Shown here in pieces: positions 46,129-53,324 of a DNA stretch of 64,000 nucleotides. The translations under genes were made by a program, and so were the position numbers. The stretch comes from Desulfovibrio sp. Fe33 (GTDB lineage Bacteria > Desulfobacterota > Desulfovibrionia > Desulfovibrionales > Desulfovibrionaceae). Position 1 is the stretch's first letter. Every line of letters starts with the position of its first letter. The stretch covers positions 1 to 64,000 of the forward strand of contig NZ_JAQKGU010000008.1 of NCBI RefSeq assembly GCF_028532725.1, in the 5' to 3' direction. Under the pieces are notes generated by a model. That model did not search any database. It was not told the origin of the DNA and saw only the letters and a program-made list of their open reading frames with translations.

Positions 46129-46224
46129 ATGAAAACCTCCATCGTTACCTCCGCATACTTTTCCAACTTTTACTTTTGGTATTGGTATAGCCACGCTCGC
46201 GGGCTTGGAAGAGGCGCTGTGTAA
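46129..46224 (+). CDS. Aromatic leader peptide of the aro/trp operon
   Basis: This 31-codon frame starts MKTSIVTSA and then reads YFSNFYFWYWY: nine of eleven residues are Phe (3), Tyr (4) or Trp (2). It ends in SHARGLGRGAV with TAA. The chance of such a run is very low, and its place just before a strong terminator and the first common-pathway gene is typical of ribosome-mediated attenuation. The ribosome site is weak (AGAAG); an in-frame ATG at 46108 would add seven residues. The peptide itself probably has no function beyond being translated. Confidence 0.8.
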   Translation: MKTSIVTSAYFSNFYFWYWYSHARGLGRGAV

Positions 46225-46300
46225 CCTTTTGGTGGATCACACAACCGATAGATAACTTCTTCAAGGGCCGCGGGCGAAAGCCGGCGGCCCTTGTTTTTTT
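46204..46300 (+). terminator. Attenuator terminator of the aro/trp operon with possible antiterminator
   Basis: The terminator occupies 46262-46300: a 13-bp GC-rich stem (CAAGGGCCGC with GCGGCCCTTG outermost), GAAA loop, one mismatch, then seven T. Upstream, CTTGGAAGAGG (46204-46214) inside the leader frame can pair with CTTCTTCAAG (46256-46265), with one bulge and one G-U pair, which would consume the base of the terminator stem. Stalling at the aromatic codons (46156-46188) would leave the first segment free; a ribosome at the stop would cover it. Confidence 0.75.
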
Positions 46301-50844: not shown

Positions 50845-51615
50845 ATGGCAACGGAAATACACAACATCGCCGTCGTGGGCGCAAACGGGCAGATGGGCGG
50901 CCGCTTCTCGGCGGACTTCGCGGCCCTCGGCCTGAACGTCGCGCGCCTGGACCGGGAATCCTCGGACGAGGACGTGCGCGCGGCCCTCGACGGCTGCGAC
51001 CTGCTCCTGCTCAGCGTGCCCGTCACGGCCATGGACGCCGTGCTCGACCGTATGCTGCCGAGGCTTGGCCGAACGGCCATCCTCTGCGACGTAGGCTCCG
51101 TGAAGGTCATGCCCGTGAAGGCCATGACGGCCCGCTATGAAGGGCCTGTGGTGGGCACGCACCCTCTGTTCGGCCCCGTCGTTCCCGAGGGATTCGAGCC
51201 CAGGGTGGCGGTCATGCCCGGCCGCGACCGCGATGCGGACGCCGCGGCACTGGTGGCCGACCTGTTCACCCGCTGCGGCTACCACTGTTTCGCCTCCGAC
51301 CCGGAAGAACACGACCGGGCCATGGCCTACATCCAGGGCCTGAACTACACATCCACCGTGGCCTTTCTGGCCGCGGCCCGGGATGTGGAGGGCATCAGCA
51401 ATTTCGTCACCCCGTCCTTCCGGCGCAGGCTCGATGCCGCCGCGAAAATGCTGAACCAGGACATGGAGCTCTTCGAGATCATCTCGGAGGCCAACCCGTT
51501 CCTTCAGGAAGTCAGCCGCAAGTTCATGTCCTACCTCAGCCTGGCCGCCGGCGGCGATCTCGATCTGCTCGCCGACCGGGCGCAGTGGTGGTGGCGCAAC
51601 GAAAAGTCTTATTGA
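50845..51615 (+). CDS. tyrA: Prephenate dehydrogenase with a WWW C-terminus
   Basis: This 256-aa NAD(P)-dependent enzyme leads to tyrosine. The Rossmann motif VVGANGQMGGRF is followed by LCDVGSVK, the GTHPLFGP signature and EHDRAMAYIQGLNY. No chorismate mutase domain is fused; that activity is in PheA. The final residues are AQWWWRNEKSY: three consecutive TGG codons nine codons before the stop. Immediately downstream lies a terminator/antiterminator, so this tail probably doubles as a trp leader peptide. Confidence 0.94.
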   Translation: MATEIHNIAVVGANGQMGGRFSADFAALGLNVARLDRESSDEDVRAALDGCDLLLLSVPVTAMDAVLDRMLPRLGRTAILCDVGSVKVMPVKAMTARYEGPVVGTHPLFGPVVPEGFEPRVAVMPGRDRDADAAALVADLFTRCGYHCFASDPEEHDRAMAYIQGLNYTSTVAFLAAARDVEGISNFVTPSFRRRLDAAAKMLNQDMELFEIISEANPFLQEVSRKFMSYLSLAAGGDLDLLADRAQWWWRNEKSY

Positions 51616-51695
51616 TGGGGTGCGGCGTTTCGCCGGGCACACGATTACACCTGTAACCGAAGCCGCACCCCGACCAAGGGTGCGGCTTTATTTTT
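51586..51695 (+). promoter_or_regulatory. Intra-operon Trp attenuator using the tyrA tail as leader peptide
   Basis: TGG TGG TGG occupies 51586-51594 and the tyrA stop 51613-51615. Segment 1 GGGGTGCGGC (51617-51626) pairs perfectly with segment 2 GCCGCACCCC (51662-51671). Segment 2 also pairs perfectly with segment 3 GGGTGCGGC (51678-51686), extended to AAGCCGCACCC/GGGTGCGGCTT and followed by TATTTTT, a terminator. A ribosome stalled at the Trp codons leaves segment 1 free (antiterminator 1:2); a ribosome at the stop covers it (terminator 2:3). A tiny frame (MMNGT, 51705-51722) follows AAGGAG. Confidence 0.8.
51660..51695 (+). terminator. Terminator half of the tyrA-trpE attenuator
   Basis: An 11-bp perfect stem, a 7-base loop and TATTTTT lie 160 bp before trpE in the middle of a functionally continuous operon. 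An unconditional terminator here would silence the trp genes, which supports conditional use. Confidence 0.88.
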
Positions 51696-51857
51696 AAGGA
51701 GAATATGATGAACGGAACGTGAAAGAAATGGGAAAACCACAAGAAGATCAAAGGGTGGCAGGTCATACCCAGGCCATATCATTAATAGAACAGCCAAAAC
51801 CGGCACCATTGCGAGTGGAGCGCACGCTCTGCGCGCCTGAAGTGCGAAGGATACAAA

Positions 51858-53324
51858 ATGCAGAAAATAACCATCACGCAGCACGGCAAATGGATGCCTG
51901 CCGACGTGCAGACCACCATCTCCCTCTACATGGGACTGGTGGGCGACCAGCCCGGCATTCTCCTGGAATCCGCCGAGGTTGACGGGCGGCTCGGCCGCTA
52001 TTCCCTCATCGCCTTCGACTACCGCCTCATGCTCCACCCCGTGGACGGCAGGCTGGTGGTCGAGGCCTCCGACGAGCGTCTCGCGCCCCTCAAGGAGTTC
52101 GAGGGCATGGACTTCCTGGCCGGGATCAAGGAAGTCGTCAAACATCTCTCCATCGAACAGGAGGCCACCGGCACCTCCCCGGCCATCGGCCGCGACGGGC
52201 TGCCCGGACTGACGCGCGGCCTGTACGGCTATTTCGGCTACGGCGTGGCCGGGATGTTCGAACGCAAACTGAAAGATGTGTGCAGGCCCGAGGACGCCGA
52301 GGCGTGCCTGGTCCTGCCCGGCCAAATGGTCCTCTTCGACCACCTGCGCCACTCCTGCTGCTATCTCTCCCTGGACGAGGGAGCCACGCCCATGCCCGCA
52401 CCGATCCAGTGGGGCGGCGACCTGGCCGCGCCCGAGACCGGCGCGCCCGAGGTGCATCCGGGCAAGGAGGAATACATGGCCGGGGTGGCGCGGTGCAAGG
52501 AGCTCATCGCCGAGGGCGAATGCATCCAGGTGGTCCTGTCCACCCGGTTCTCGATGCCCCTGCCCGACGAGCCGTTCCGGATCTACCGCCGACTCCGCCA
52601 GGCCAACCCCTCCCCGTTCATGTTCTACATGAAATTCCCGGACTGCCCGTCCATGGGCAAGACCTGCGGCACCACCCTGCTCGGCTCCTCTCCCGAGATG
52701 ATGGTCCGCTCCGCGCGCGGCAGCCTTGAAGTGCGCCCCATCGCAGGCACCCGCTGGCGCGGAGAAACCGAGAAGGAGGACATCCGCCTGGAGCAGGAAC
52801 TCCTGTCAGACCCCAAGGAGCGGGCCGAACACGTCATGCTCGTCGACCTGGGCCGCAACGACCTGGGCCGAATATCCAAGCCCGGCACCGTGACCGTGGA
52901 AAAGTTCATGAACGTGGAAAGATTCTCCCACGTCATGCACCTGACCTCCTACGTGGAAGGCGAACTCAAGGACGGGCTCGACGGCGTGGACGTGCTCCAG
53001 GCCACCTTCCCGGCAGGAACCCTGTCCGGCGCGCCCAAGATTCGGGCCATGGAGATCATCGCCGACCTGGAACCCGAAGCGCGCGGCCCTTACGGAGGCT
53101 GCATAGGCTGGATGGGCCTGGACGACGGCGAGGTCAGTCTCGACACCGGCATCACCATCCGCTCCATGTGGATCAGGGACAACGTCTGCCACTGGCAGGC
53201 GGGCGCGGGAATCGTCTACGATTCGAACCCCGAGGCCGAATGGGTTGAATGCAACAACAAGGCCCGTGTGATTCTCGAAGTCATCACCGGCAAGGGAGGC
53301 ACCGATGTTTTTGCTGATCGATAA
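51858..53324 (+). CDS. trpE: Anthranilate synthase component I
   Basis: This 488-aa subunit converts chorismate to anthranilate with ammonia from TrpG. The Trp feedback motif LLES is at residues 35-38. The catalytic part shows RPIAGTRWRG, HVMLVDLGRNDLGRI and GTLSGAPKIRAMEII. It is the first gene behind the intra-operon attenuator. AAGGA lies upstream. It overlaps trpG by 20 bp. Confidence 0.97.
   Translation: MQKITITQHGKWMPADVQTTISLYMGLVGDQPGILLESAEVDGRLGRYSLIAFDYRLMLHPVDGRLVVEASDERLAPLKEFEGMDFLAGIKEVVKHLSIEQEATGTSPAIGRDGLPGLTRGLYGYFGYGVAGMFERKLKDVCRPEDAEACLVLPGQMVLFDHLRHSCCYLSLDEGATPMPAPIQWGGDLAAPETGAPEVHPGKEEYMAGVARCKELIAEGECIQVVLSTRFSMPLPDEPFRIYRRLRQANPSPFMFYMKFPDCPSMGKTCGTTLLGSSPEMMVRSARGSLEVRPIAGTRWRGETEKEDIRLEQELLSDPKERAEHVMLVDLGRNDLGRISKPGTVTVEKFMNVERFSHVMHLTSYVEGELKDGLDGVDVLQATFPAGTLSGAPKIRAMEIIADLEPEARGPYGGCIGWMGLDDGEVSLDTGITIRSMWIRDNVCHWQAGAGIVYDSNPEAEWVECNNKARVILEVITGKGGTDVFADR

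Follow-up and report, generated by a model that had tools for sequence, protein, structure and literature searches.

The aromatic supraoperon of Desulfovibrio sp. Fe33 raises the question of whether the coding end of an enzyme gene can act as the leader peptide of an attenuator for the genes that follow it in the same operon. We analysed a window of 64,000 nt (NZ_JAQKGU010000008.1, positions 1 to 64,000), in which the 12 supraoperon genes lie in the order aroA' (aldolase), aroB' (3-dehydroquinate synthase II), pheA with chorismate mutase, aroA and tyrA, then trpE and the other trp genes (trpEGDCFBA). The original prediction, made from sequence alone, was that the end of tyrA and the RNA just behind it form a Trp attenuator. 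Our analysis supports this: very likely, the C-terminal coding end of tyrA is the leader peptide of a ribosome-mediated attenuator of trpEGDCFBA, with ribosome stalling and Trp-dependent termination themselves remaining inferred.

Three RNA segments between tyrA and trpE

TyrA is 256 aa long, and its gene ends in CAG TGG TGG TGG CGC AAC GAA AAG TCT TAT TGA (51583-51615), i.e. a C-terminus of WWW-RNEKSY-stop, with the first Trp codon 9 codons ahead of the stop (Table 1). A single base separates the stop from segment 1. Segment 1 pairs with segment 2 through 10 perfect bp (helix 1:2, here called the antiterminator), and segment 2 pairs with segment 3 (GGGTGCGGC, 51678-51686, within the terminator arm 51678-51689) through 11 perfect bp and one G-U (helix 2:3, the terminator). 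The two helices are mutually exclusive because both need segment 2. ATTTTT follows directly 3' of the 12-pair hairpin, which is the only terminator that an independent scan found in the region, and the terminator lies 168 nt ahead of trpE. Direct reading and the terminator scan thus bore out the Trp run, segments, pairings and U tail at the positions originally given for them.

Table 1. Features of the tyrA–trpE switch and of the operon head (window coordinates)
Feature	Position	Strand	Basis
Operon-head leader ORF, MKTSIVTSAYFSNFYFWYWYSHARGLGRGAV; upstream tier	46129..46224	+	Direct reading
Operon-head attenuator terminator	46263..46300	+	Hairpin, -29.6 kcal/mol
tyrA, prephenate dehydrogenase; 3' end is the proposed leader-peptide coding region	50845..51615	+	ORF; PF02153 PDH_N, E 3.6e-16
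Three tandem Trp codons, TGG TGG TGG; proposed Trp-tRNA sensor	51586..51594	+	Direct reading
tyrA stop, TGA; a ribosome there would cover segment 1	51613..51615	+	Direct reading
Segment 1, GGGGTGCGGC; 5' arm of antiterminator	51617..51626	+	Direct reading; pairing, folding, covariation
Terminator hairpin (2:3)	51659..51689	+	Terminator scan; -23.0 kcal/mol; congener pairing
Segment 2, GCCGCACCCC; arm common to both helices	51662..51671	+	Direct reading; folding, covariation
Terminator U run, predicted 3' end	51691..51695	+	Direct reading; terminator scan
Mini-ORF, MNGT(TGA)KKWENHKKIKGWQVIPRPYH; between terminator and trpE, genus-specific	51708..51785	+	Sequence comparison
trpE, first gene under proposed control	51858..53324	+	PF00425, E 2.4e-88; PF04715

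The RNA from 51613 to 51700 is more stable than chance (z = -3.58, with 0/200 dinucleotide shuffles as stable), and so is the pairing of segment 1 with segment 2 (z = -4.6, 0/300 shuffles as good). The window is GC-rich, however, and by our own reading of the hairpin survey, about 3 of its ~18 U-tailed hairpins of -20 kcal/mol or lower face a competitor upstream that is stronger than they are. Strong competitors are therefore not unique here; we rate the evidence of this locus by itself as only moderate, and it is conservation, rather than any single sequence, that shows more than chance.

Segment 1 also has an alternative local partner just downstream (51617-51642, -11.4 kcal/mol here), a hairpin common in Pseudodesulfovibrio. 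Conceivably it is a protector that leaves segment 2 free when no ribosome is near.

Conservation, covariation and spacing across Desulfovibrionales

Genomes searched with TyrA numbered 288 in the family and 348 in the order, and we compared 170 tyrA 3' ends from genomes of the order. Switches were detected by a folding-based search followed by manual removal of clear false positives; this replaced an earlier hairpin finder that missed or mis-picked terminators at some loci. The later statistics omit seven loci that we removed manually: six controls judged to be false positives (g11, g18 and g23) and L022, which the finder had mis-located. Among our genus labels, g1 is Pseudodesulfovibrio, g12 Nitratidesulfovibrio and g24 Halodesulfovibrio, and g25 matches Humidesulfovibrio.

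The three-segment switch occurs between tyrA and trpE at ~110 loci of 22 genera and six families, namely 13 genera of the window's own family f1 (g1, g4, g12, g13, g14, g15, g19, g24, g25, g27, g31, g34 and g42) and nine of five other families (g45, g46, g50, g51, g52, g54, g55, g57 and g58). Where trpE lies downstream of a real spacer, ~109/127 sampled loci have it, and the three segments are the only elements common to the spacers of sampled relatives. WWW is present in every switch-bearing genus; two exceptions, each a single species, have WW. All loci with the switch have two or three W. Relatives with the same gene order that lacked both Trp run and stems would have refuted the original prediction; this is not the general pattern, as 22 genera keep both.

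The loci without a switch fall into several kinds: (i) At 22 loci (g2, g3, g16, g17, g39 and one of g23) trpE abuts or overlaps tyrA, leaving the switch no room; the tail is WW in g3, g16, g17 and g39, but WWW in g2. (ii) In a g46 subclade without adjacent trpE (L153, L155), the third Trp and the structure are both lost. (iii) WWW is kept without the switch in g18, g5 and g6, where trpE is not beside tyrA. (iv) The WWW genera g28, g32, g36 and g37 have a spacer with no recognisable U-tailed terminator. The g37 spacer (L068, L070, L074) contains three mutually pairing G-rich or C-rich blocks and no U run; these blocks might be a translational or Rho-type form of the switch.

At the genus level, WWW is found in 22/22 genera with the switch vs 10/19 without it (Fisher p 2.6e-4, with no correction for phylogeny), the latter often having WW only. 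A WW ending is absent from all 26 TyrA loci taken from outside the order, which makes the Trp tail an order-level feature; WWW as an ancestral feature of TyrA was rejected on the same grounds. Attenuation cannot be the sole force keeping the tail, since WWW persists without the switch in the genera of (iii); a role in the protein is possible too, and neither exaptation nor protein constraint behind WWW is excluded. AlphaFold models the tail as closing the last TyrA helix, at a confidence too low to settle the point.

The sequences of the segments have diverged among genera, with compensatory changes in both helices. Counting on from the CCG core, seven segment-2 positions (+3 to +9) change pair type in both helices: at each of them 2–5 standard pair types are used among the genera, in 1:2 as well as in 2:3. 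In the 23 Pseudodesulfovibrio sequences, 95.1% of helix 1:2 is paired and four of its pairs have changed on both sides (0/500 shuffles); sliding the register lowers the paired fraction to 39-49%. Helix 2:3 of the same sequences has 96.4% of its cells paired, and double changes are seen in three of its pairs (6/500 shuffles) and in 13 cells (0/500). At L011 a triple change carries G-C to A-U through all three segments.

Segment 1 holds its position relative to the Trp codons and not to the stop. Over 111 loci it lies 20-39 nt from the first Trp codon and 14-33 nt from the last; genus medians for the first range over 22-31.5 nt (SD 2.2), whereas, measured from the tyrA stop, the segment 1 core begins anywhere between -26 and +11, a drift of about 35 nt (SD 7.5). 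Segment 1 positions were found without reference to the Trp codons, and when Trp positions were redealt among genera, 0/10000 shuffles were as tight as the observed spacing. The front edge of a stalled ribosome lies some 12-15 nt past its A-site codon, and the spacing ahead of segment 1 is footprint-sized in 22 genera. A constant distance to Trp with a drifting distance to the stop is what would be expected if the ruler were a ribosome stalled on Trp. In Pseudodesulfovibrio, g25 and g34, segment 1 comes after the stop; in most other genera it falls within the last tyrA codons. The original emphasis on segment 1 beginning just after the stop is corrected accordingly, the conserved feature being the distance from the Trp codons.

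Proposed mechanism and rival explanations

In constrained folding, a ribosome on Trp codon 1, 2 or 3 lets the RNA made as far as segment 2 adopt 1:2, at about -26.9 kcal/mol. A ribosome at the tyrA stop hides segment 1; the same stretch of RNA then reaches only -7.7 kcal/mol, and the completed RNA folds into the terminator. Equilibrium folding with segment 1 free still favours the terminator (-37.0 kcal/mol), so the model requires kinetic priority of 1:2 by order of synthesis, like classical attenuators. We propose that, when charged tRNA-Trp is scarce, a ribosome translating tyrA would stall at the WWW codons with its front edge short of segment 1, which would capture segment 2 as it emerges; helix 1:2 would then block the 2:3 terminator, and RNA polymerase would continue into trpE. 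With Trp plentiful, a ribosome at or near the stop would mask segment 1, segment 2 would pair with segment 3, and transcription would stop at the U run behind tyrA. The shared and the Phe and Tyr genes upstream would remain on, governed by an aromatic attenuator at the operon head. No Trp-dependent 3' ends have been measured, and stalling and Trp-dependent termination are inferred.

The head leader has a Phe/Tyr/Trp-rich stretch, AYFSNFYFWYWYSHARG (within 46129-46300), and among the 22 heads examined, which span genera and families, such an F/Y/W-rich leader with a terminator is missing only from L269. Control appears to be two-tiered, aromatic at the head and Trp-only at tyrA/trpE, a hierarchy that is likewise inferred. 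The original prediction had Trp shutting off the trp genes while the upstream genes stay on; given the conserved head leader, we amend this to the second of two tiers.

The simplest alternative is an unregulated intrinsic terminator or processing hairpin that sets a fixed lower level of trp expression, segment 1 being a chance repeat and WWW merely the C-terminus of TyrA. In its favour, WWW is also seen without the switch, terminators with a strong competitor upstream are not especially rare in the window, and the position of the tail in the AlphaFold model leaves a role in the protein possible. We consider it very unlikely: a plain terminator would have no need of segment 1, which covaries with segment 2 and stays fixed to the Trp codons while drifting ~35 nt against the stop. 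No more probable, in our judgement, is that the structures are real but governed by tyrA translation in general (ribosome occupancy, growth rate or Rho/NusG coupling) rather than by Trp. Segment 1 would be masked whenever tyrA is translated to its end, and published expression changes track pressure or biofilm state, not Trp; against this, the element sits at a fixed, footprint-sized distance past the Trp run in 22 genera, what follows it is the set of Trp pathway genes, and no such tail is seen on TyrA outside the order.

A Trp leader bound by a ligand or protein (T-box, TRAP or riboswitch) would also fit a terminator/antiterminator switch ahead of trp genes. It is all but excluded. No Rfam family reached threshold across the window and the spacer gave only chance-level matches; RF00513 (Trp_leader) had no hit at gathering in the window and none at E <= 10 in the spacer, the T-box covariance model matched neither window nor spacer, and genes for TRAP (PF02081) and TrpR (PF01371) were not found in the window's genome. 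Sampled relatives, moreover, share only the three segments. Attenuation by a ribosome stalled in the tyrA tail remains the preferred reading.

Published expression data touch the preferred reading only lightly. RNA-seq of D. hydrothermalis at 10 vs 0.1 MPa called trpE, trpG and trpD down and did not call the five upstream genes from aldolase to tyrA, while at 26 MPa all cluster genes (DESAMv2_21548-21557) were down (PMC4162548). This fits an internal switch at tyrA/trpE, but weakly: the pattern depends on the threshold, the variable was pressure and not Trp, and 'not called' does not mean unchanged. The evidence is also at the cluster level only, as this species' own locus was not identified among those compared.

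A mini-ORF of 25 codons, found only in the tyrA–trpE spacer of Pseudodesulfovibrio, is present in 23/36 genomes of that genus, with the consensus MxxT-TGA-KxxENRKKxKGWxVIPRPxx. Its in-frame TGA is invariant and the coding signature is clear beyond it, with 22 variable columns at third positions vs 10 and 8 at the others; five more congeners (L010, L012, L016, L017 and L019) retain just MxDT-TGA-K. The window's genome carries selB and tRNA-Sec. We found no family match for the peptide, and no SECIS element or conserved hairpin directly after the UGA, with a local hairpin further downstream. A bolder reading, which we think unlikely, is that the mini-ORF is an extra Pseudodesulfovibrio sensor whose UGA is read by Trp-tRNA(Trp) or as selenocysteine and whose product tunes trpE; if true, it would join two attenuators, the order-wide one in the tyrA tail and the aromatic one at the operon head.

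Comparison with known attenuators

Leader peptides are usually regarded as throw-away short ORFs; here sensing would fall to the coding end of an enzyme gene, throughout an order. The fused aromatic supraoperon may split its output in this way, through a general aromatic switch at its head and a Trp-only switch inside. Amino acid attenuators elsewhere could have been overlooked where they start inside annotated genes.

No published precedent for the tyrA-tail arrangement was found in the literature searched, mostly open-access, and to that extent the original statement that no named precedent was known holds. On this basis we regard the arrangement as very likely a previously undescribed form of ribosome-mediated attenuation, real and conserved. 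It has a translated stretch that repeats the codon for the amino acid made by the operon (WWW, near the end of tyrA), an exclusive antiterminator and U-tailed intrinsic terminator ahead of the structural genes, and a geometry in which a stall at Trp leaves segment 1 free and a near-stop ribosome covers it. What it lacks of the usual attenuator is the dedicated short leader ORF, the frame here being that of the 256-aa tyrA; hence we call it a variant.

The closest familiar system is the TrpL attenuation of E. coli and other proteobacteria (RF00513), which likewise has tandem Trp codons and a U-tailed terminator before trpE, and in which ribosome position picks antiterminator or terminator, Trp scarcity giving read-through. 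TrpL, however, is a dedicated short ORF, whereas here that place is taken by the last codons of a complete enzyme gene within the operon. Classical trp attenuation also uses four segments, and the switch described here three, with no conserved classical 1:2 pause hairpin; the classical geometry originally proposed is amended to this three-segment form. The head aromatic attenuator belongs to the same operon and shares the attenuator logic, with F/Y/W codons, but it lies upstream of the first gene and has its own dedicated leader peptide. For D. vulgaris, Table 7 of Song et al. 2005 (PMC1173090) lists a Merino-predicted attenuator ahead of aroA' and none between tyrA and trpE.

In the literature searched, the nearest case of WWW within a functional protein sensing Trp is YtgCR of Chlamydia trachomatis (PMC7755916), where a WWW in a functional protein gene links Trp-tRNA, termination and trp control. 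There, Trp starvation leads to termination within ytgCR and acts in trans because the YtgR repressor is lost (PMC7755916). The tyrA switch would differ in both respects, being of opposite sign and acting in cis: at tyrA, starvation would prevent termination.
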